The notes under the pieces are model-generated. The model saw only the letters and a list, made by a program, of their open reading frames with translations. It made no database searches and was not told the DNA's origin. Below are positions 14,952 through 61,306 of a stretch of 64,000 nucleotides of DNA, piece by piece. Numbering within the stretch: the first letter of the stretch is position 1; the number at the start of each line of letters is the position of its first letter. Made by a program: the position numbers and the translations under genes. Origin of the DNA: Bacteroidetes bacterium HGW-Bacteroidetes-4 (GTDB taxonomy: Bacteria; Bacteroidota; Bacteroidia; Bacteroidales; SZUA-534); contig PHDD01000001.1 in NCBI GenBank assembly GCA_002840905.1, positions 278,606-342,605 on the forward strand, in the 5' to 3' direction.

Positions 14952-17882
14952 TTAGTTTTTTAAAGCCTGGTACAATATTTCAACCGGGTGCAAAGCCTGG
15001 CGCCCGGTTCCATCTTTTATCTGATGCCGGCAACTGGTTCCGGGAGCAGCAATCAGGGTTTCTTTTGTCGTATTGCGAACGCTTGGGAAAAGCACCAGTT
15101 CACCAATTTGCATCGATACCTGATAGTGTTCTTTTTCGTAACCAAAACTTCCGGCCATACCACAACATCCACTGGGTATTTCTTCAACTGTATAATTTTC
15201 AGGAAAAGCTAAAATGGTTTTGCTTGCCTGGGTTGATGCAATGGCTTTTTGCTGACAATGTCCGTGCAGCTTTATCTGCTTCGGTTCAATCGTAAACCGG
15301 GTTTTGTCGATGGTACCTTTTTCTATTTCACGGGCTAAAAACTCTTCGATGGTCAGCGTGTTTTTTGCCAGCGTTTTGGCTGTATCTTTAAGCTCAGCAC
15401 CAACCAAATCGGGATATTCGTCGCGGAAGGTTAAAATAGCCGAAGGTTCAATACCCACCAGCGGATTGGAATCACTAATTATGTCTTTAAGCAAAGAAAC
15501 ATTCAGCAAGGCTAATTTTTTTGCACTAATCAGCAATCCTTTCGATAAATAGGCGCGTCCGCTTTCAACATGGCGAAAAGTTTGAATGTGATATCCCAGT
15601 TCGGTCAATAATTTAATGGTGGTAATACCAAGCGCAGCGTCGTTGTAATTGGTAAACTCGTCGATAAACAGTACCAGCCGGCCACTACTTTTGATTGGTA
15701 GCGAAGTTTGTGGAATGTTTTTATTTGCCCAGTTACGTAGCGTGGTTTGCGAAAGTAAAGGGAGTGAACGTTCTGTAGCCATTCCCAGAGTTTTTTTCAG
15801 GAACTTTGACATTTGTTTATGCTGTAAAACAAAATTGGTAATACCTGGAATCCATGCTCCCAAACTGTTTATGCGGCTAATGTTGGCAATGGCCCGGGTA
15901 CGCAGCGGAATTCCATGTTGCTTGTACCAGTGTTGCAGGAATTCGGCTTTCATTTTGGCCACATCAACACTGCTGGGACATTCTGATTTACAGGCCTTAC
16001 ACGATAAACACAAATCCAAAGCATCATAAATTTCCTGATGATCGAAGGGGTTTTGTTTGGGTGAATTTACCAGAAACTCACGCAGAATGTTTGCCCGGCT
16101 ACGGGTAACATGAGCTTCGTCACGGGTTGCCATGTAACTTGGGCACATAGTTCCTCCGGCGGTGTGTAGTTTTCGGCAGTCGCCCGATCCGTTACAGCTT
16201 TCGGCTGCTCGAACCAAACCTTGTTTTTCTGAAAAATCGAAATAAGTTTTTATTTCTCGTGTAGCACCTTTTTTTGCCCGTAAATTACTACGCATGGGAG
16301 GTGTGTCGATAATTTTTCCCGGATTAAAAATATGGTTAGGGTCCCAGGTGTTTTTCAGTTCTTTCAGCAAATGATACACTTTATCGCCCAGCATAAAAGG
16401 AATAAATTCTCCACGCAATCGGCCATCGCCATGTTCACCACTGAGTGAACCTTTGTATTTTTTTACCAGGCGGGCAATATCCCAGGCCAGTTGTTCAAAT
16501 TTTTCAATGTCCTGTTCTTTTTTCAAATCGAGCCGCGGTCGCAAATGAATTTCGCCGGTTCCTGCATGGGCATGGTAAACACATTCCTCACCATAGCCAG
16601 CCATTATTTTTGAAAATTCTTCGATGTATTCCGGCAGCACGTCCGGATGAACAGCAGTGTCTTCAATAACAGTAACACTCTTGGTGTCGCCGGGAATATT
16701 TGCCATTATTCCCAAGCCTGCTTTTCGCAGATTCCAGGCTTTTTTAATTTCGGAGCCATATAAAATGGGATAGTGGTAGCCCAGCATGTTTTGTTTCATT
16801 TCGTCTATCATGGGCCGTGCCGCTTTTTCTATTTCGTCGTGCTTATGTTTAGCAAATTCAATAAGTAAAAGGGCCTTGGGATTTCCCTGAACAAAAAATC
16901 GGTTTTTTTGCTGCTCCAGATTATCTTTCGATGCATTCAGAATAATATCATCCATTAATTCTACTGCGGTTACCCCGTGTTTTAAGGCAATAATATTTGC
17001 TTTGAGTGCATCGTTTACCGAATTAAAATGTGCAGCCACCAATCCTTTTTCTTTGGGTGGTAAATCAACCAGCGCAAGTTTTATTTGAGTCATAAAAAGC
17101 AAGGTGCCTTCGGAGCCGGCAATAAGTTTGGCTAAATTAAATGGTTCATCGTTTTTACCAAATAAATCGGTAAAAAGCAATTGATCGATGGCATAACCAT
17201 GGTTACGCCTTGTAATACGTTGATCGGGATAATTTTCGATTATGGCATTTTGGTTCTCCTTATCGGAAAGTATTTGATTTAGTTGCCGGTAAATTTTTCC
17301 CTCGAGGTTTTGAATCTTACACTTCTCGTCGAATTCAGTTTTTGTTATTGGTTTGAAAGTTACTTTGGAGCCATCGCTTAAAAAGCCGGAAGTTTCCATA
17401 ATATGATCGCGTGTAGTGCCATATACCACTGCATGTAAACCACAAGCATTGTTTCCTGCCATTCCACCAATATTACAGCGATTAGCTGTTGAAGTTTCAG
17501 GTCCAAAAAACAGCGCATGGGGTTCAAGAAAACGGTTTAATTCATCGAGAATAACCCCGGGTTCTACCGTAATTGTTTTTTCGTTGGGATTGAAATCAAT
17601 AATCTGGGTTAAGTATTTCGAGATATCGACCACCACACCGTTTCCTACTACCTGCCCAGCCAATGATGTTCCTGCGGCTCGGGGAATCAATGGGATTTTA
17701 TGTTTTGCCGCATAGTTAACCAGTTTTTCAATATCGTGCTCGTTTTTTGGAACCACAACAGCGGCAGGTTTTTCAAAATATACCGATGCATCGGATGCGT
17801 AGCGGATTTTTGAAGCCTCGTCAGTTAATAGTTCACCTTCCAGTAAGCCGGATAAGGTGCTAAGGTGTTTTTTATACTCCAT
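14952..17882 (-). CDS. Fused FAD-binding and Fe-S dehydrogenase (D-2-hydroxyacid type)
   Basis: A 976-residue fusion. The N-terminal half is a VAO-type flavoprotein: the FAD-binding PP-loop PRAAGTSLAGQVVG is near residue 63, followed by CNIGGMAGNNACG and an FAD-oxidase C domain with HAHAGTGEIH. The second half has a [4Fe-4S] ferredoxin region (CNGSGDCRK, CLSCKACKSECPSSVD) and CCG cysteine-rich domains (HGHCQQKA; GCCGMAGSFGYE). This is the arrangement of GlcD plus GlcF, or of YdiJ-like D-2-hydroxyglutarate/D-lactate dehydrogenases, which oxidise a 2-hydroxyacid and pass electrons to the quinone pool. The substrate cannot be fixed from sequence. All key motifs are intact. Confidence 0.9.
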   Translation of the reverse strand: MEYKKHLSTLSGLLEGELLTDEASKIRYASDASVYFEKPAAVVVPKNEHDIEKLVNYAAKHKIPLIPRAAGTSLAGQVVGNGVVVDISKYLTQIIDFNPNEKTITVEPGVILDELNRFLEPHALFFGPETSTANRCNIGGMAGNNACGLHAVVYGTTRDHIMETSGFLSDGSKVTFKPITKTEFDEKCKIQNLEGKIYRQLNQILSDKENQNAIIENYPDQRITRRNHGYAIDQLLFTDLFGKNDEPFNLAKLIAGSEGTLLFMTQIKLALVDLPPKEKGLVAAHFNSVNDALKANIIALKHGVTAVELMDDIILNASKDNLEQQKNRFFVQGNPKALLLIEFAKHKHDEIEKAARPMIDEMKQNMLGYHYPILYGSEIKKAWNLRKAGLGIMANIPGDTKSVTVIEDTAVHPDVLPEYIEEFSKIMAGYGEECVYHAHAGTGEIHLRPRLDLKKEQDIEKFEQLAWDIARLVKKYKGSLSGEHGDGRLRGEFIPFMLGDKVYHLLKELKNTWDPNHIFNPGKIIDTPPMRSNLRAKKGATREIKTYFDFSEKQGLVRAAESCNGSGDCRKLHTAGGTMCPSYMATRDEAHVTRSRANILREFLVNSPKQNPFDHQEIYDALDLCLSCKACKSECPSSVDVAKMKAEFLQHWYKQHGIPLRTRAIANISRINSLGAWIPGITNFVLQHKQMSKFLKKTLGMATERSLPLLSQTTLRNWANKNIPQTSLPIKSSGRLVLFIDEFTNYNDAALGITTIKLLTELGYHIQTFRHVESGRAYLSKGLLISAKKLALLNVSLLKDIISDSNPLVGIEPSAILTFRDEYPDLVGAELKDTAKTLAKNTLTIEEFLAREIEKGTIDKTRFTIEPKQIKLHGHCQQKAIASTQASKTILAFPENYTVEEIPSGCCGMAGSFGYEKEHYQVSMQIGELVLFPSVRNTTKETLIAAPGTSCRHQIKDGTGRQALHPVEILYQALKN

Positions 17883-52401: not shown

Positions 52402-52409
52402 TATTTTTG
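52402..52409 (+). promoter_or_regulatory. -7 box of nrfHA
   Basis: TATTTTTG matches TAnnTTTG. There is no clear TTTG at -33, which fits a promoter depending on an activator. The TTG at 52407 that opens the reading frame lies inside this box and so cannot be the start codon. Confidence 0.6.
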
Positions 52410-52424
52410 AACAAAATAAAACAA

Positions 52425-53012
52425 ATGCCTATGAATAGTATGAATTGGTATAAAAAACTGATTCCCCCCGACCGTTGGAAATTGCCTGTGATTATCGTAT
52501 TGGGCATTGCTGTGGGTATGGGTTTTTATTTGTTAAAAATAAGTAAAGCCGCCTCTTATTTGTCCGATGAACCGCAAACCTGTGTCAATTGTCACCTTAT
52601 GGCACCACAGTTTGCCACATGGAATCATTCATCGCACCGGCAGTGGGCAACCTGTAACGATTGTCACGTGCCACAGGATAATTTTTTCAACAAATACTAC
52701 TTTAAAGCCAAAGATGGACTCCGGCATGCAACCATTTTCACTTTGCGAAAAGAGCCTCAGGTAATTTTTATTCTTGAGGCTGGACAAGAGGTAGTACATA
52801 ATAATTGTGTGCGTTGTCACTCAAAATTGTTGGAAGTCGATCAAAAACTGGTGAATAACAATTTTCACCACCAACGCACTGATCGCCGTTGCTGGGACTG
52901 TCACCGCGAAGTACCCCACGGAAGGGTTAACAGCCTTTCGAGCACACCCGATGCACGTGTTCCACTGCCCGAAAGCCCGGTTCCCGATTGGATTAAAAAA
53001 TTAACAAAATAA
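52425..53012 (+). CDS. nrfH: Cytochrome c nitrite reductase small subunit, tetrahaem
   Basis: About 195 residues, counted from the ATG at 52425 (52431 and 52440 are alternatives). One N-terminal membrane helix (LPVIIVLGIAVGMGFYLL) anchors a periplasmic domain with four haem-binding C-x-x-C-H motifs: CVNCH, CNDCH, CVRCH and CWDCH. This is the NapC/NirT-family quinol dehydrogenase NrfH, which takes electrons from menaquinol and passes them to NrfA. nrfA starts 32 bases later. The operator and promoter upstream indicate control by anaerobiosis or nitrogen oxides. Confidence 0.95.
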   Translation: MPMNSMNWYKKLIPPDRWKLPVIIVLGIAVGMGFYLLKISKAASYLSDEPQTCVNCHLMAPQFATWNHSSHRQWATCNDCHVPQDNFFNKYYFKAKDGLRHATIFTLRKEPQVIFILEAGQEVVHNNCVRCHSKLLEVDQKLVNNNFHHQRTDRRCWDCHREVPHGRVNSLSSTPDARVPLPESPVPDWIKKLTK

Positions 53013-53044
53013 TTATTGGTAAACACTATTTAAATTAAATACAG

Positions 53045-54562
53045 ATGAAACCTATTACAGAGCAAATAAAAAACAAACCTATTTTAGGTTGGGTTCTCTT
53101 TTTGGGAACGGTTGTGGTGGTATTTTTATTGGGAATGCTGGCATCGGCCGTGATGGAAAGGCGTGCTGAAGCTGTTTTTGCTTATACACCACAGGTTAAA
53201 CATTCACAGTTTGAACCACGTAACGAAGTTTGGGGAAAAAACTTTCCCCGTCAATACCAGTCGTACAAAAATACTTCCGATACCTCGTTCCGGAGCATGT
53301 ACAACGGAGGGGCTATGATTGATATGCTTGAAGTCGATCCCCGCCTGGTTATCCTTTGGGCAGGTTATGGTTTTTCAAAAGAATACAATCAGGGACGTGG
53401 CCATGCCTATGCCATCGACGATGTCCGCAATATTCTCAGAACCGGGGCTCCTGTGGGTCAGGAAAAAAGTCCCATGCCAAATACCTGCTGGACCTGTAAA
53501 AGTCCCGATGTACCCCGGGTGATGAATGAAATTGGTGTGGCTGAATTTTACAAAGGAAGCTGGGAAGAGAAAGGTCATGAAGTAGTAAACCATATTGGTT
53601 GTGCCGATTGTCACGATGCCGAAAATATGAACCTGCGTATTTCGCGCCCGGCTTTGCTCGAAACTTTTACCCGTATTGGTAAAGACATTAATAAGGTGTC
53701 TCATCAGGAAATGCGTTCCCTGGTTTGTGCCCAGTGTCATGTGGAATACTATTTTAATAAAGAAACACCGGTAAAAGGAGTTCCTTATTTAACCTTCCCC
53801 TGGGATAACGGTTTTTCGGCCGAAGCTATGGAATCCTATTACGACCAAATGGAATTCTCTGACTGGACCCATCAACTGAGCAAGGCACCCATGCTGAAAG
53901 CGCAGCATCCGGGATACGAGGTTTACATGACCGGAGTACACGCCAAAAGGGGCGTATCGTGTGCCGATTGTCACATGCCTTACAAAAATGAAGGTGGACA
54001 AAAATTTACCGATCATCACATTCAAAGTCCATTGAACAATGTGGCCAATTCGTGTCAGGTTTGTCACCGCGAAGAAACAGAGCGACTGATTCAGGATGTT
54101 TATGAGCGCCAAACCAAAATTATTGAAAACCGCGATGAACTGGAAAAACTGCTGGTGCATGCACATGTCGAAGCTGAATTTGCCTGGAAAAAGGGTGCCA
54201 CCGAAGCACAAATGAAAGATATTCTGATGGATATCCGCCATGCCCAATGGCGTTGGGATTATGCTGCAGCCAGTCATGGAGGTTCGTTCCATTCGCCGGT
54301 TGAAATTGGCCGGGTAATCAGTACCGGAATCACCATTGCGCAGGAAGGACGCATTAAACTGGCCCGCCTGTTGGCCGCTTTGGGGCATAACGAGGCCATT
54401 CCTTATCCCGATATTTCAACCAAAGCCAAAGCGCAAAAATACATTGGCCTGCCCATGGATGAACTGAATGCATCGAAAAAAATATTTTTGGAGCAGGTTA
54501 TTCCACAATGGGATGCCAAAGCGGCTGAACGCGAAAAGACTTATGAGATTACCAATTTTTAA
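53045..54562 (+). CDS. nrfA: Ammonia-forming cytochrome c nitrite reductase
   Basis: A 505-residue pentahaem cytochrome. A signal anchor covers residues about 14-36. The catalytic haem site has the unusual lysine ligand motif CWTCK (C148-K152), and four C-x-x-C-H sites follow: CADCHD, CAQCH, CADCHM and CQVCH. The histidines and the helical C-terminal domain are of normal length. NrfA reduces nitrite by six electrons to ammonium in the periplasm, and also reduces nitric oxide and hydroxylamine. It forms a membrane complex with NrfH. No NrfBCD or maturation genes accompany it, which is usual for the NrfHA type. Confidence 0.97.
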   Translation: MKPITEQIKNKPILGWVLFLGTVVVVFLLGMLASAVMERRAEAVFAYTPQVKHSQFEPRNEVWGKNFPRQYQSYKNTSDTSFRSMYNGGAMIDMLEVDPRLVILWAGYGFSKEYNQGRGHAYAIDDVRNILRTGAPVGQEKSPMPNTCWTCKSPDVPRVMNEIGVAEFYKGSWEEKGHEVVNHIGCADCHDAENMNLRISRPALLETFTRIGKDINKVSHQEMRSLVCAQCHVEYYFNKETPVKGVPYLTFPWDNGFSAEAMESYYDQMEFSDWTHQLSKAPMLKAQHPGYEVYMTGVHAKRGVSCADCHMPYKNEGGQKFTDHHIQSPLNNVANSCQVCHREETERLIQDVYERQTKIIENRDELEKLLVHAHVEAEFAWKKGATEAQMKDILMDIRHAQWRWDYAAASHGGSFHSPVEIGRVISTGITIAQEGRIKLARLLAALGHNEAIPYPDISTKAKAQKYIGLPMDELNASKKIFLEQVIPQWDAKAAEREKTYEITNF

Positions 54563-54618: not shown

Positions 54619-54709
54619 GAAAAAATGCGGTGTTTTTTATAGGGTATGCTAAAAGGTTCCGGTCATAGTAGTAAGAATGAAAATTGTTTAACCTTTAAAA
54701 CATACGATT

Positions 54710-56005
54710 ATGAAAACAACAAAAAAAATAAAAGCAGGATTGGTTCTGATATTAATTGCCGCTTTTTCGATGAGCACCGTGAGTGCATCGGATTTGTTTT
54801 TAGGAAAGAAACAAAAACAAACCGATGAATCGTTTAAAACTTTTCAGGGTAAAATTATTGATGCAGAATCGTCGCAGCCTCTAATTTTTGCCGCAGTGGC
54901 TATTGAAGGAACCAATATTGCCACGGTTTCGAATACCGAAGGTAATTTCACATTAAAGGTTCCCAATCAGTATTTAACAGCTAAAATTAAGATTTCGTAC
55001 ATTGGCTATGAAAACCTTACCTTTCCGGTTTCCGATTTAAAAGAGGGTAAAAGCAATGTGCTGAAAATGCAAATGATTTCGGTTAATCTTACCGAGGTAA
55101 AAGTATTTCCGAACAATCCGCGCCTTTTAATTGAGAAAGTGCTGGCCATGCGCAGTAAAAACTATGCCAGCGACCCGGTAATAATGACTGCTTTTTACCG
55201 CGAAACCATTAAAAAACGCTGGAGTTACATAGCCTTATCCGAAGCGGTAGTCGAAGTTTACAAGCAGTCTTATAACAACGAGCGGCAGGATTTGGTAAAA
55301 CTTTACAAAGGCCGCAAAAGTACCGATGTGGAGAAAATGGATACCTTACTCTTCAAGTTACAGGGAGGTCCGTATTCAACCCTGATGCTCGACGTGGTTA
55401 AAGATCCGTATTTGGTGCTCTCCGAAGATGTGCTTGACCATTACACCTATACTTATATCAACATTACCCGTATCGACGGCCGCCTGAACTATGTTATTGA
55501 ATTTAAACAACGCCCGTATGTTTCCACACCCTTATTTTATGGCCGCTTTTACATCGATGTTGATAATTTTGCCATCACCAGTGCTTCGTTCAGCCTGAAT
55601 ACTGAAAACGAACAAGAGGCCAGCGCCATGTTTATCAAGCGCAAACCCATAGGAGTAAATGTGGTACCCACATCGGCAACCTACCTGGTAAATTATACCG
55701 AAAAAGACGGAAAATGGTACTACAGTTATTCACGCGGCGAGGTATCGTTTAAAGTAAACTGGAAAAAGCGTTTGTTCAAAAACACCTTTAATACCATGGT
55801 TGAGATGGCAGTAACCGACTGGAAACCTGCCGATGAAAAACCCTTTAAAGCATCAGACCGGATGCGTATGAATGTGGTTATGACCGAAACTGTAAATGGT
55901 TTTGCCGATGCCGACTTCTGGGGCGAATACAACACCATTGAACCGGAACAATCCATTGAATCGGCCATTAAAAAGATTAAAAAGAATCTTGAAAAAACTA
56001 AATAG
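54710..56005 (+). CDS. Carboxypeptidase-regulatory-domain protein, paralogue without STN
   Basis: A 431-residue protein with a signal peptide (residues 1-27). A carboxypeptidase-regulatory-like (CarboxypepD_reg/DUF4480-type) domain follows at about 44-120 (FQGKIIDAESSQPLIFAAVAIEG ... ISYIGYENLTF). After it come about 300 residues I cannot name, with FYRETIKKRWSYIALSEAVVEVY and LNYVIEFKQRP. The region resembles the part before the barrel in DUF5686-type proteins, but no outer-membrane barrel follows. The whole downstream part aligns by eye with the protein at 57693 (FYRE, SEA, R-K-x-T-D, KL-x-GG, EFKQR, YS/Y-x-x-x-V/GE). It is therefore a paralogue that lacks the STN signalling domain. It is probably a periplasmic or outer-membrane-associated protein; function unknown. 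Confidence 0.8.
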   Translation: MKTTKKIKAGLVLILIAAFSMSTVSASDLFLGKKQKQTDESFKTFQGKIIDAESSQPLIFAAVAIEGTNIATVSNTEGNFTLKVPNQYLTAKIKISYIGYENLTFPVSDLKEGKSNVLKMQMISVNLTEVKVFPNNPRLLIEKVLAMRSKNYASDPVIMTAFYRETIKKRWSYIALSEAVVEVYKQSYNNERQDLVKLYKGRKSTDVEKMDTLLFKLQGGPYSTLMLDVVKDPYLVLSEDVLDHYTYTYINITRIDGRLNYVIEFKQRPYVSTPLFYGRFYIDVDNFAITSASFSLNTENEQEASAMFIKRKPIGVNVVPTSATYLVNYTEKDGKWYYSYSRGEVSFKVNWKKRLFKNTFNTMVEMAVTDWKPADEKPFKASDRMRMNVVMTETVNGFADADFWGEYNTIEPEQSIESAIKKIKKNLEKTK

Positions 56006-56015
56006 TTTGTACTTT

Positions 56016-56041
56016 AGAACCGGTCTTTAAAGGCCGGTTCT
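56016..56041 (+). terminator. Hairpin between paralogue and sigma-factor gene
   Basis: AGAACCGG / CCGGTTCT with an inner CTTTAAAG makes a near-perfect 26-base palindrome 10 bases after the stop. The tail (ATTTAT) is a poor U-tract, so partial termination, mRNA stabilisation or an operator for the next gene are all possible. Confidence 0.5.
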
Positions 56042-56064
56042 ATTTATAAACCCAACAGTTTAAA

Positions 56065-56607
56065 ATGAGCGTAGCTATTCAGTTTGCATCCATAAAAAAC
56101 GGTGACATAAAAGCTTATGAAACCCTTTTTCGTTCTTTATACCCGGCACTCTGCGCTTATGCAAATAAACTACTGAACGATGCCGACTGGGCTGAAGAAA
56201 TGGTGCAGGAAGTTTTTTACCTGCTTTGGAAAAACAAAACCCAACTAACAATTACAGGTTCTTTGAATGCTTATCTGTATAAAGCGGTACACAACAAATG
56301 CCTGCACCTGATTGCGCACCGGCAGGTAAAGGAAAAATACTCGCAGCATCAGCAATACCAAAACAATGAGGTTTTTAATGCTGATGAAGCCATGCACACC
56401 GGGGAACTGTACACGGTTTATAAAAATACCTTACGAACCTTGCCTCAACGCTGCCGGCAGATTTTTCAGATGAACCGCAATTATGGATACAAGTATCACG
56501 AAATTGCCGAAAAGCTTTCCATATCGGTTAAAACCGTTGAAGCCGATATGGGTAAAGCACTGAAGGCATTCAGGCAAAGTTTGGCCGCCTATAATGCAAA
56601 CGACTAA
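56065..56607 (+). CDS. ECF-type RNA polymerase sigma factor (FecI-like)
   Basis: A 180-residue sigma-70 family protein. Region 2 (YETLFRSLYPALCAYANKLLNDADWAEEMVQEVFYLLWKN) covers about residues 19-60 and region 4 (LPQRCRQIFQMNRNYGYKYHEIAEKLSISVKTVEADMGKAL) about 124-165. It is a typical Bacteroidota extracytoplasmic-function sigma factor. The FecR anti-sigma gene follows 96 bases later and the STN-domain protein after that, so it is expected to be released by a surface signal and to drive these genes and perhaps the upstream paralogue. Confidence 0.93.
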   Translation: MSVAIQFASIKNGDIKAYETLFRSLYPALCAYANKLLNDADWAEEMVQEVFYLLWKNKTQLTITGSLNAYLYKAVHNKCLHLIAHRQVKEKYSQHQQYQNNEVFNADEAMHTGELYTVYKNTLRTLPQRCRQIFQMNRNYGYKYHEIAEKLSISVKTVEADMGKALKAFRQSLAAYNAND

Positions 56608-56703
56608 AACAAAACAGACCATGTCTGACATTATTAATTGAAACACAAACAAAACAGTTTATACGCAATGCCAAATTGAGGCACGATTACAAGGATTAAA
56701 ACC

Positions 56704-57678
56704 ATGAAAGAAAATAAACATATAGCCTGGCACACCCTGGCAAAGTACCTGTCAGGAAATGCACCGGATAAGAACGATGCATTGCTCGCTGATGAAGCCG
56801 GAGCCGAAGAACTGGCTGCATGTAAAGAAACCTGGAAAATTTTAAACAAAATGCAAGAAATGGAACAATATGATACCGATAAAGCCTGGAATTCCTTGTT
56901 TGGACGATTGAATGAGGAGGAGTTGGTAAGTGGGGAAGCAAAACCAATTAAGAGAGTGAATTTCCGATGGTCATATGCCGTTGCCGCTTCGCTGGTTTTA
57001 CTTATGGGTTTGGCTGGTTTCCTGTTTCTGCAAAACCTACAATCGGGCATCAGTTATATAAATAATAATGTAGCTGCTCTTACCATTTTTTTACCCGATG
57101 GAAGCGAAGTAAGTTTGAACCAGGGGGCTGAGGTGAAATATTATAAGAGCTTTGGCCTTAACGACCGCAGTATTTCATTAGCGGGCGAAGCTTTTTTTAG
57201 GGTAAAGCCCGATAAAAATCTTCCTTTTATTATCACCACACAGCAAACGGCAGTAAAAGTGCTGGGAACGTCGTTTAATGTTAAGTCAGATGCCTATGGT
57301 GTTGAAGTTGTGGTAAAAACAGGCAGGGTAGAGGTTTATCGCGATAAAAACATCCGCGAAGCCCTGGTGTTGAATCCCGGAGAGGGAGCCTTATCGTCTG
57401 GTGTTGGTTTGGTTAGGTACCAGAACGAAAGGGAAAACTACCTGGCCTGGCTCGATAAAAAACTGGTGTTTAAAGCCATGCCGCTGCCCCAGGTTATCAA
57501 CGACATCAATCAGGCCTACCATACCCAAATTGAACTGGGCAACAGCAGTATTCAAAACCTGGTGATTACCACTACTTTTGAAAACAACAGCATCGACGAG
57601 GTGCTGGAATCCATTGCTTTGGCTTTAAATCTCGAGGTTGAAAAACAAAACAAAAAGTACCTTTTGATATCCAAATAA
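56704..57678 (+). CDS. FecR-family anti-sigma factor
   Basis: A 324-residue protein with a short cytoplasmic part (about 1-82), one membrane helix (YAVAASLVLLMGLAGFLFL), a periplasmic FecR domain (about 120-225; LPDGSEVSLNQGAEVKY, GEAFFRV, VLGTSFNV) and a C-terminal DUF4974 domain (LVFKAMPLPQVINDI ... DEVLESIALALNLEVEKQNKKYLLI). It would hold the preceding sigma factor at the membrane and release it when its periplasmic part contacts an STN domain. The STN protein begins 15 bases after its stop, a normal FecI-FecR-partner order except for the nature of the partner. Confidence 0.95.
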   Translation: MKENKHIAWHTLAKYLSGNAPDKNDALLADEAGAEELAACKETWKILNKMQEMEQYDTDKAWNSLFGRLNEEELVSGEAKPIKRVNFRWSYAVAASLVLLMGLAGFLFLQNLQSGISYINNNVAALTIFLPDGSEVSLNQGAEVKYYKSFGLNDRSISLAGEAFFRVKPDKNLPFIITTQQTAVKVLGTSFNVKSDAYGVEVVVKTGRVEVYRDKNIREALVLNPGEGALSSGVGLVRYQNERENYLAWLDKKLVFKAMPLPQVINDINQAYHTQIELGNSSIQNLVITTTFENNSIDEVLESIALALNLEVEKQNKKYLLISK

Positions 57679-57692
57679 ACAAACCATCTAGC

Positions 57693-59237
57693 TTGCAAAA
57701 AAAGCTTCATATAGCTGTACTCCTGTTGCTTTGGGTTTTAGTTACCATTCAGGGCAGGGCACAGTCTGTTTCAAAAACAGGCTCTTATTTGTCGATGCCC
57801 GTATCGCTCAATGTTTCAGATCAGGCGCTCGATAAGGTACTCGATAAGCTATCGGCTCAGTGCAACTGCTATTTTACTTACGATGCCCGACAAATCGACG
57901 GCGACCAAAAAGTATCACTGGCTTGCAATGCCTGGCCGCTTAAAATGGTTTTAGATTCACTGCTCAATAACCCCATGTTTCGTTACGAGATAATAAACAA
58001 TCAGGTAGTGATTCACCCCATTGCAATTGCGCGCAGCAAAATAGTCGACTCAAGTGAAACTTTTCTAATTTTAAAAGGAAAAATTATACACCAAGGTACA
58101 TCCCAACCCCTGCCGTTTGCTTCCATTGCTTTAAAAAGCACCTATCTTGGGGGTATAAGCAACGAGAATGGCTCCTTTAATCTGAAGATTCCGGAAAAAT
58201 ATAAAAACGATACCCTGGTATTTAGTTATCTGGGGTTCACCAACCGGCAAATTGCCCTGACTAACTTTCCCGATTCTGGTTTAATTGCTTTACACGAAGC
58301 GGTGGTACCTTTACAAGAAGTTATGGTACGCAGTAAAGACCCGCTTTTCTTAATCAAAAAAGCCCGGAGTGTACTCGACCAAACGCATCAGCAAAAGGCT
58401 TATGCTTTTGAAGCTTTTTACCGCGAATCCATTCAAACCAATAAACGGTATGTGGTGTATTCCGAGGCGTTAATTAATGGCTATGTGCCAGAGATAAGCC
58501 AATCGTTTTCGAATCAGCGGGTTGAGTTGATTAAAACGCGTAAGTTTACCGACATCAGGCTCGAAGATACCATTATGGTAAAACTTAGGGGAGGTATGGA
58601 TGCCTGTTTTCAGTTGGATATTGTTCGACAATTCCCCGATTTTTTAAGCGACGAGGGCCTTTGGCTTTACCATTATCAATTGATTGATATGGTAGCCTGG
58701 CAAGACCAACTGGTTTATGTTATCGGGTTTAAACAGCGAAAAGAAACTTCCGAAGCCCAGTTCGAAGGTTCACTCTACATCAGCAGCAGCGATTACGCCA
58801 TTTTAGGTGCTGAGTTTTATTTTGAACCTATCAAGCTCAACCGGTCGATGAATTTGTTTGTAGTACGTAAAAGCAACGCCATAAAAGTAAAACCCACCAA
58901 AACCCATTATCGGGTAAGTTATGTACAGGTAAACGGAAAATACTATCCACAGCATGTTCAGGGCGAACTGCAAGTGAAAGTGCGCAAGCGGCGCGAAATT
59001 TTTACCAAAAGTTTTACCACGGCTATGGAATTATTTTATTTAAATTATGCCGATAGGGAACGTTACAAAGTGCCACGACGCGAACTGTTTCAAACCACTT
59101 CGGTTTTTTCCGATGCCATGGAACGATATGATAACGGATTCTGGCAAAATCAAACCATTATTCTTCCGGAAGAAGATATTCTGGAAGCATTTAAAAAGTC
59201 GGGTTTTAAAATTCAGGAACAGGGACAAAATCCTTAA
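57693..59237 (+). CDS. STN plus carboxypeptidase-regulatory domain protein without TonB barrel
   Basis: A 514-residue protein starting at TTG (57693); the first ATG lies after the signal peptide, so TTG is required. The signal peptide ends near residue 24 (IQGRAQ). An STN domain (residues about 33-108; PVSLNVSDQALDKVLDKL ... FRYEIINNQVVIHP) normally found at the N-terminus of TonB receptors or secretins comes next. A carboxypeptidase-regulatory domain (about 125-200) and about 310 residues homologous to the upstream paralogue follow. There is no plug, no barrel, and no second-domain TonB box. The position after FecR, with STN, suggests the signal-input partner of the sigma system. How a signal is sensed is unknown. 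Confidence 0.85.
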   Translation: MQKKLHIAVLLLLWVLVTIQGRAQSVSKTGSYLSMPVSLNVSDQALDKVLDKLSAQCNCYFTYDARQIDGDQKVSLACNAWPLKMVLDSLLNNPMFRYEIINNQVVIHPIAIARSKIVDSSETFLILKGKIIHQGTSQPLPFASIALKSTYLGGISNENGSFNLKIPEKYKNDTLVFSYLGFTNRQIALTNFPDSGLIALHEAVVPLQEVMVRSKDPLFLIKKARSVLDQTHQQKAYAFEAFYRESIQTNKRYVVYSEALINGYVPEISQSFSNQRVELIKTRKFTDIRLEDTIMVKLRGGMDACFQLDIVRQFPDFLSDEGLWLYHYQLIDMVAWQDQLVYVIGFKQRKETSEAQFEGSLYISSSDYAILGAEFYFEPIKLNRSMNLFVVRKSNAIKVKPTKTHYRVSYVQVNGKYYPQHVQGELQVKVRKRREIFTKSFTTAMELFYLNYADRERYKVPRRELFQTTSVFSDAMERYDNGFWQNQTIILPEEDILEAFKKSGFKIQEQGQNP

Positions 59238-60962: not shown

Positions 60963-61306
60963 CACCAATGCAAGAGCTCACTCAGCGTCCCGGTTAAGCC
61001 CCAACACCAATGCAGGAGCTCACTCAGCAGCTTGGTTAAGCTCCCGCACCAATGCAAGAGTTCACTCAGCGTCCCGGTTAAGCTCCAACACCAATGCAGG
61101 AGCTCACTCAGTAGTTTGGTTAAGCTCCAACACCCATGCAGGAGCTCACTCAGTAGTTTGGTTAAGCTCCAACACCCATGCAGGAGCTCACTCAGTAGTT
61201 TGGTCAAGCTCCCGCACCCATGCAGGAGCTCACTCAGTAGTTTGGTTAAGCTCCCGCACCAATGCAGGAGTTCACTCAGATACTCGGTTAAGCTCCCGCA
61301 CAAGTG
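60963..61306. repeat. 42-bp minisatellite, eight units and a partial ninth
   Basis: Eight head-to-tail units of exactly 42 bases begin at 60963 and every 42 bases to 61257, with the ninth broken off near 61306. A unit reads CACCAATGCAGGAGCTCACT, then CAGTAGTTTGG, then TTAAGCTCCAA. Differences are confined to a few positions: CACCA/CACCC, the CGTCCCGG/AGTTTGG core and the CCAA/CCCG joint. Most units carry GGAGCT and AGCTCC, so each can fold on itself. As 42 is divisible by three, both strands show long open frames; on the minus strand the 14-residue repeat is SLTKLLSELLHWCW-like. Confidence 0.95.

Follow-up and report, generated by a model that had tools for sequence, protein, structure and literature searches.

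Genes and features of the locus

The window, a 64,000-nucleotide stretch of DNA, carries four genes on the forward strand: PAR, an ECF sigma factor gene (SIG), the gene for a FecR-type anti-sigma factor, and STNP, a candidate sensor paralogous to PAR.

54640..54667, + strand: predicted ECF-type promoter, TAGGGTA-N14-GGTCATA, upstream of PAR (from G000:C7:333245-333272)
54710..56005, + strand: PAR, likely exported; CarboxypepD_reg (residues 42-127), then a LolA-like half-barrel (133-384); likely sigma target
56016..56041, + strand: perfect 8-bp inverted repeat with a 10-base loop between PAR and the sigma factor gene, read from the sequence
56065..56607, + strand: ECF sigma factor (SIG); TIGR02985, 162.6 bits against a cut-off of 126.4
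56704..57678, + strand: FecR-type anti-sigma factor; Pfam PF04773 (FecR) and PF16344 (FecR_C)
57693..59237, + strand: STNP, sensor candidate; STN, CarboxypepD_reg, and LolA/RseB/MucB-like half-barrel, without plug or barrel
57798..58019, + strand: STN domain of STNP (residues 36-109), the predicted FecR-docking domain
58059..58328, + strand: CarboxypepD_reg/SusC-NTE-like domain of STNP (residues 123-212)
58329..59090, + strand: predicted LolA/RseB/MucB-like half-barrel of STNP (residues 213-466)

An earlier note on this DNA had described a sigma factor, a FecR protein, and an STN protein here, and the matches to TIGR02985, PF04773, and PF16344, together with the STN and CarboxypepD_reg features, confirm that observation; the STN match of the window's STNP is sub-threshold. 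FecR has a single hydrophobic, transmembrane-like segment (residues 91-109, by hydropathy) and is predicted to sit in the membrane. The inverted repeat is possibly a partial terminator or attenuator. The ECF sigma factor, the adjoining FecR with its FecR_C domain, and an STN domain similar to those of FecA and PupA are all shared with FecA/FpvA-type transducers, and the anti-sigma partner, which matches FecR and FecR_C, is not of the RseA type. STNP differs from FecA/FpvA-type transducers, however, in having no plug and barrel, and the cassette has no TonB-receptor gene, in agreement with the earlier proposal of a route not tied to a TonB receptor.

Recurrence of the gene set and the motif upstream of PAR

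The four-gene set is conserved among Bacteroidota, some of them human gut species. Typing covered 45 loci that had an STN+CTD ORF, and removal of 5 duplicate contigs left 40 distinct loci outside the window. The earlier note had proposed to check for recurrence in other genomes, and the set does recur as a unit. The order PAR-SIG-FECR-STNP was found at 26 of the 40, a Prolixibacteraceae type with the order SIG-FECR-[STN-aspartyl protease-PDZ]-STNP at 11, and other or cut arrangements at three. NCBI annotation places the same four genes in the same order in Parabacteroides distasonis.

TAGGGT was found upstream of PAR in all 27 cassettes (27/27) when positions -300 to +150 relative to the called PAR start were scanned, and at 5 of 59 solo PAR genes, each of which had 100 or more upstream bases (3 of the 62 solo loci lacked upstream sequence). 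The two-part motif was present in 23/27 cassettes compared with 0/59 solo genes and 0/11 Prolixibacteraceae-type operons; one solo locus, L073, had TAGGGT under a wider scan, without the two-part motif. When the 27 upstream stretches were shuffled 200 times, the two-part motif occurred with a mean of 0.015 and a maximum of 1. The exact form ATAGGGTA-N14-18-GGTCAT has a single occurrence in the genome, at PAR, and none in the control. Both the P. distasonis and the P. massiliensis cassettes (2/2), neither of which was used in deriving the motif, carry it. Because of this distribution among cassettes, solo genes, and Prolixibacteraceae-type operons, the sigma factor likely drives PAR plus its own operon, as judged from sequence. 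The earlier suggestion that the STN-less paralogue is the effector fits this conserved motif, and PAR looks like the regulated partner.

A search for a wider regulon gave 3 matches to a loose motif in the same genome (5 in the control) and 35 matches to a tighter motif in 12 genomes (26 in the control). Of these 35, six were the promoters of the cassettes themselves, and a near-identical repeat accounted for several in a single genome; by eye, no common function linked the first ORFs that follow the additional sites downstream. The neighbors of solo PAR genes gave no functional clue, since the best family besides PAR occurred at 11 of 62 loci. A PAR search scored 7999 proteins, of which 6294 were matches at E 0.001; some of these may share the CarboxypepD domain alone. 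In the second tree, L135, whose row is cut at a contig edge and for that reason wrongly carried the label solo, was left out, and 26 of the 63 rows labeled solo were drawn.

Predicted fold and location of STNP

STNP had no profile match to Plug or TonB_dep_Rec and no 22-strand barrel of the FecA type, and the absence of plug and barrel reported earlier is also consistent with its AF2 model, in which the last 300 residues form about 10 strands resembling a half-barrel. Among 50 VIA-align rows, 19 lay wholly at or after residue 210: seven were MucB/RseB, five were titled LolA, LolB, or lipoprotein carrier/sorting, five were apoB/vitellogenin/lipovitellin, one was LprG, and one was DUF1329. By predicted structure, STNP has the LolA-like N-terminal half-barrel of RseB/MucB and the LolA/LolB fold; no sequence-level link between the half-barrel and LolA/RseB was found. 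The 310 residues that the earlier note called unrecognised thus resemble LolA/RseB/MucB in predicted fold, though not in sequence.

The C-terminal domain of RseB binds the anti-sigma factor. Neither this domain nor a TolA/TonB-like domain was among the 50 structure rows listed for STNP, and the best MucB alignment ends at MucB residue 201; even with no match, an RseB C-terminal domain may be present. The possibility that the C-terminal region conceals an outer-membrane barrel was rejected, as the model resembles a half-barrel that is open, and the rmsd values of the FpvA/FoxA rows were 17-21 Å. Membership in the BamP family was also rejected (17.1 bits, cut-off 230, mostly in the CarboxypepD domain common to many proteins). 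By term search, a Nature 2025 paper on BAM contains none of the terms carboxypeptidase, CarboxypepD, STN, anti-sigma, sigma factor, ECF, sigE, envelope stress, or stress response.

STNP is predicted to be a soluble periplasmic protein, because its hydrophobic signal segment at the N terminus contains no cysteine and it has neither a second strongly hydrophobic segment (top 19-residue mean hydropathy, 1.04) nor a barrel. The earlier term "surface partner" therefore finds no support. The periplasm is also where the C-terminal half of FecR should sit. In the window's family (six relatives), conservation was 51% for STN compared with 45% for whole STNP and 56% for FecR_C compared with 43% for whole FecR; a mirror-tree proxy for STN-FecR_C co-divergence was null.

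The predicted half-barrel of PAR and STNP is common to LolA/LolB-type proteins of Bacteroidota (9tp6 and 9tpm), but PAR and STNP have an extra N-terminal CarboxypepD domain, and STNP also an STN domain; a carrier role is putative, and no sequence-level match was found. In DUF5686 proteins (PF18939; ~800 aa), the part after the CarboxypepD domain can be aligned with STNP as far as about residue 374. A checked pair, L103 and L104 (815 and 798 aa), has no STN domain, and no sigma or FecR match was found in ~14 kb around it. A literature search for DUF5686 found nothing.

A signaling model and its alternatives

A barrel-less STN sensor has been described before, in VreA of Pseudomonas aeruginosa (PMC2729926), and the cassette appears to be a variant of this published type of signaling. 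PUMA3 (VreA-VreR-VreI) likewise combines an ECF sigma factor, a sigma regulator, and a mostly soluble barrel-less STN protein, the composition seen here with a signal segment, a FecR-type regulator, and a predicted soluble location. The second domain of VreA is, however, ~105 residues long and modeled as TolA/TonB-like, whereas STNP has CarboxypepD and the predicted LolA/RseB-like half-barrel, and the available part of that source describes neither a paralogous target gene nor this gene order. The broad idea in the earlier note has this precedent; the STNP domain order is named in NCBI annotation as "STN and carboxypeptidase regulatory-like domain-containing protein," a name to which no function or mechanism was found attached. 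No published account of the PAR-sigma-FecR-STNP cassette was found among the papers listed, one of which gave a gene table only. RseB/MucB, which acts on RseA/MucA, is periplasmic and has a fold among the closest to the STNP sensor head; like it, STNP would control an anti-sigma factor by ligand. In STNP, by contrast, no alignment covered an RseB C-terminal domain, the partner is a FecR-type anti-sigma factor, and STN would do the docking. The MucB half-barrel is reported as a lipid-binding sensor controlling an anti-sigma factor (PMC7400510).

The locus likely encodes barrel-less cell-surface signaling with an RseB/MucB-like sensor head that reads lipid or lipoprotein state and with PAR, the sensor's paralogue, as target. 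Because the remainder of STNP has a predicted fold similar to those of lipid carriers and envelope-stress sensors, STNP likely reports envelope state rather than nutrient uptake. We infer the STN-FecR contact, the ligand, the sign of the signal, the proteolysis, and the activity of PAR. STNP would dock FecR through its STN domain, its predicted half-barrel would read a lipid or lipoprotein-like ligand, and a changed state of the outer-membrane ligand would make STNP alter the proteolytic exposure of FecR. FecR proteolysis would free the sigma factor to transcribe from the TAGGGTA-N14-GGTCATA promoter, raising PAR and, by read-through, SIG, FecR, and STNP. PAR, a likely carrier or chaperone for the sensor's own ligand, would thus complete an autoregulatory loop in which carrier supply follows load. 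One protein in the genome exceeds the RseP family cut-off, which supports this explanation since regulated proteolysis needs RseP. No MucB_RseB match was found in the same genome; at E 0.001, such matches occur in 12 of 198 sampled genomes of the phylum, 10 of them over the family cut-off. We give the whole explanation, from a set without a TonB receptor through a periplasmic sensor to the PAR loop, an even chance of being correct.

STNP might instead be one half of a receptor split in two, the half that signals; its NTE-like CarboxypepD domain and half-barrel would then dock a SusC-type TonB receptor or other outer-membrane protein encoded elsewhere, with nutrient uptake still the signal. This is unlikely: no TonB-receptor-like ORF was found in the stretch covered at 36 of 39 typed loci (a search of limited sensitivity, made with receptor-part queries and on some short contigs), the ORFs at the other three are on the opposite strand and in two cases adjoin a sigma/FecR set of their own, and PAR has the same CarboxypepD domain without STN. 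A sensor head that monitors BAM-linked stress by reading peptide ends of outer-membrane proteins, either misfolded or waiting, rather than lipids seems rather unlikely, as the BamP match is far below cut-off and largely in a widely shared domain, and the half-barrel itself resembles lipid-handling folds.

It is improbable that STNP mainly protects FecR while PAR or the Prolixibacteraceae-type STN-protease acts and sensor input comes from elsewhere. The FoxA/FoxR transducer does protect its anti-sigma factor without signal (PMC11637429), and the STN-aspartyl protease-PDZ gene is in the operon at 11 loci, but 0/26 PAR-type loci have such a gene upstream of STNP, and a conserved extra half-barrel of 290 residues is hard to explain in a plain shield. 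Decay of a receptor into a fragment with no signaling function would account for the sub-threshold STN match, for the faster divergence of STNP than PAR in 253/253 pairs, and for the P. massiliensis record, in which the STNP frame is split in two. We nevertheless consider it highly improbable, given the retained length (495-563 aa across 45 typed loci), 22 invariant columns over 70 sequences, the recurring gene order, and a C-terminal part that is not receptor-like.

In a more speculative reading, which we consider less likely than not, a single lipid-carrier-like module was duplicated to give both sensor and effector, PAR having kept the carrier job and the STN-gaining copy having become a load gauge for FecR/sigma in a closed-loop envelope homeostat. 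Such a homeostat would join RseB/MucB sensor logic with the docking logic of iron-uptake signaling. STN would then act as a portable adaptor, as Prolixibacteraceae have an aspartyl protease-PDZ protein in the same operon that also bears it. The preferred explanation, if right, would identify a sensor of envelope state for which the PAR promoter is a ready reporter, would show that FecR/STN signaling can be plugged into processes other than TonB uptake, and would suggest a role for the very large "carboxypeptidase-like regulatory domain" protein family. The idea is testable in P. distasonis, a commensal that carries the full cassette. Two genes of P. merdae, NQ542_RS07340 (carboxypeptidase-like) and RS07355 (with STN and carboxypeptidase), are both reported to be down four- to five-fold with Neu5Ac (PMC12893687), and the spacing of their locus tags would fit a PAR-sigma-FecR-STNP cassette.

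The cassette and its surroundings

Four genes, all on the same strand, lie at 54710-59237 of the window. They encode an ECF sigma factor (SIG), a FecR-type anti-sigma protein (FECR), and two paralogues, PAR and STNP. STNP is a candidate sensor whose C-terminal region (CTD, or sensor head) is predicted to form a LolA/RseB/MucB-like half-barrel.

Genes of the cassette (all within window 54710-59237, same strand)
PAR, 431 aa: CarboxypepD and a C-terminal region as in STNP
SIG, 180 aa: ECF sigma factor, TIGR02985
FECR, 324 aa: anti-sigma protein, FecR and FecR_C, one hydrophobic segment (91-109)
STNP, 514 aa: N-terminal signal segment, STN, CarboxypepD_reg, then ~290 residues

The STN domain of the window STNP scored below threshold; at a permissive limit, 65 of 70 aligned STNP sequences matched STN. 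It was the sole PF07660 match in the window's own genome at E 0.01, and an 850-aa ORF on contig C13 has a weakly STN-like N-terminus. PAR and STNP share CarboxypepD and the C-terminal region (33% identity), and a domain search of the window proteins found no STN match in PAR, bearing out the earlier note's description of an STN-less upstream paralogue. STNP is the longest of the ORFs overlapping 48-64 kb of the window; therefore, no intact TonB receptor is present in that range. Just two FecR genes were found in this genome, the other (G000:C24:815-1093, L186) adjoining a sigma-sized ORF near the end of the available stretch. NrfH/NrfA-like cytochrome c nitrite reductase genes (window 52407-54562) lie directly 5' of the cassette, and window 60963-61296 holds a 42-bp tandem repeat (eight copies, 87% matches); both of its strands carry open frames, and no gene was recognised there.

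Distribution and gene order

Of 60 relatives, 12 encode a full-length STN+CTD protein, defined by a match that begins before residue 60 and extends beyond 490 (17 have any match at 1e-15). Among 392 genomes drawn across the phylum, 55 had any match and at least 3 a full-length protein, a lower bound given that three candidates per genome were scored. From the named genomes, 558 relatives were confirmed, of which the best 80 were retained. An STN+CTD ORF was present in 45 of 120 examined loci, and these 45, five of them second copies of the same contig, were typed by gene order. The order PAR-SIG-FECR-STNP occurred in 31, so that the barrel-less FecR-STN-CarboxypepD set, whose recurrence the earlier note had left to be surveyed, does recur in other genomes. 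Eleven had SIG-FECR-STN protease-STNP, and one each had SIG-FECR-STNP (L078), a set interrupted by a contig end (L111), and an STN+CTD ORF without any of the other genes (L077). Beyond the 45, L083 carries PAR-SIG-FECR with no STNP behind. In Parabacteroides distasonis, the NCBI annotation places all four genes of the PAR-type cassette side by side (tags 16170-16185), and a Phocaeicola massiliensis record has these four genes with the STNP frame split into two ORFs of 264 and 245 aa (L223:5932-7485).

The 11 STN-protease loci (the Prolixibacteraceae type) belong to Draconibacterium, Maribellus, and their relatives. The additional gene, between FECR and STNP (L122:6421-7986, L132:6354-7916, and nine other loci), encodes an STN-like domain, an aspartyl protease, and a PDZ domain, with two DTG motifs in nine of the 11. 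The N-terminal part matches our custom-built STN profile; in the two of 11 scanned, Pfam calls it FecR_C (3.5e-5, 9.2e-5), not STN, followed by Asp_protease_2 and PDZ. FecR_C also matches 43 of 70 STNP sequences. Sequences related to the protease part are widespread in the class, occurring in 44 of 296 genomes; of the 45 matches, all except 2 start at residue 125 or later, beyond STN. The product of the additional gene is possibly a dedicated anti-sigma protease.

Searching 39 loci with parts of receptor ORFs revealed a TonB-receptor-like ORF, on the opposite strand, at three; two more matches were PAR itself. Beside the barrel-less cassette, a separate sigma/FecR set in divergent orientation occupies L076:3-4053 and L120:2-2051; its receptor-like STN ORF has 849 aa in L076 and is truncated at 373 aa in L120.

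Precedent and proposed mechanism

The earlier note inferred a cell-surface signalling route not linked to TonB uptake. VreA is a known example of an STN sensor that lacks a barrel and is partnered by a sigma factor and a regulator; for its second domain, a TolA/TonB-like model has been given (PMC2729926). NCBI only names the STNP architecture, and our literature search found no account of its sensor head, of a target paralogous to it, or of the link to the promoter.

In signalling of this kind, STN domains are established to dock onto the periplasmic part of FecR-type anti-sigma proteins and to affect the proteolysis of these (PMC11637429), and MucB binds lipid, whereupon the anti-sigma factor is released (accessible portion of PMC7400510). 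MucB is among the closest folds to the predicted STNP sensor head. Joining the STN-FecR knowledge with MucB behaviour, STNP would sense a lipid or lipoprotein state and then act on FECR, and SIG would raise expression of PAR and its own operon.

Predicted promoter and evolution of PAR

In a scan of positions -300 to +150 relative to the called PAR start, TAGGGT occurred in all 27 cassettes and the two-part TAGGGT-N14-17-[AG]TC[AT]T, a predicted ECF-type promoter, in 23, although the cassettes are related and not 27 independent events. Shuffled upstream sequences gave a mean of 0.015 two-part motifs (maximum 1). The window copy (54640-54667) is the only exact form in its genome, and the motif also precedes the P. 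distasonis and P. massiliensis cassettes, both outside the derivation set. Solo PAR genes, outside cassettes (n = 59, at least 100 upstream bases), had TAGGGT in five and the two-part motif in none; it was likewise absent before the sigma or protease gene in 11 Prolixibacteraceae-type operons. Because the motif marks cassettes and not solo PARs, PAR and the genes behind it are likely the main target of the cassette sigma. In P. merdae, the carboxypeptidase-like RS07340 and the STN gene RS07355 both drop four- to five-fold with Neu5Ac; from gene names and tag spacing, we infer that they are the two ends of a cassette, the two genes between being absent from the expression table (PMC12893687, as available).

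A quick tree built from 41 STNP and 55 PAR rows (96 in all) separated STNP by a single branch with SH-aLRT 92, which is not strong. A first tree, of 97 rows with several long branches flagged, put 21 of the 25 true solo PARs drawn into one group among the cassette PARs, so solo PARs may derive by loss of the signalling genes. Across all 253 pairs from 23 of the 27 cassettes, PAR was the better conserved of the two paralogues, a pattern that would fit PAR as the working component and STNP as a sensor that evolves faster. STN and FecR_C were better conserved than the rest of their proteins in the window's family but not over all pairs, and a mirror-tree comparison of these two domains detected no co-divergence. 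PAR is duplicated at L075:10384-13176, where a tandem pair precedes a single sigma-FecR-STNP set.
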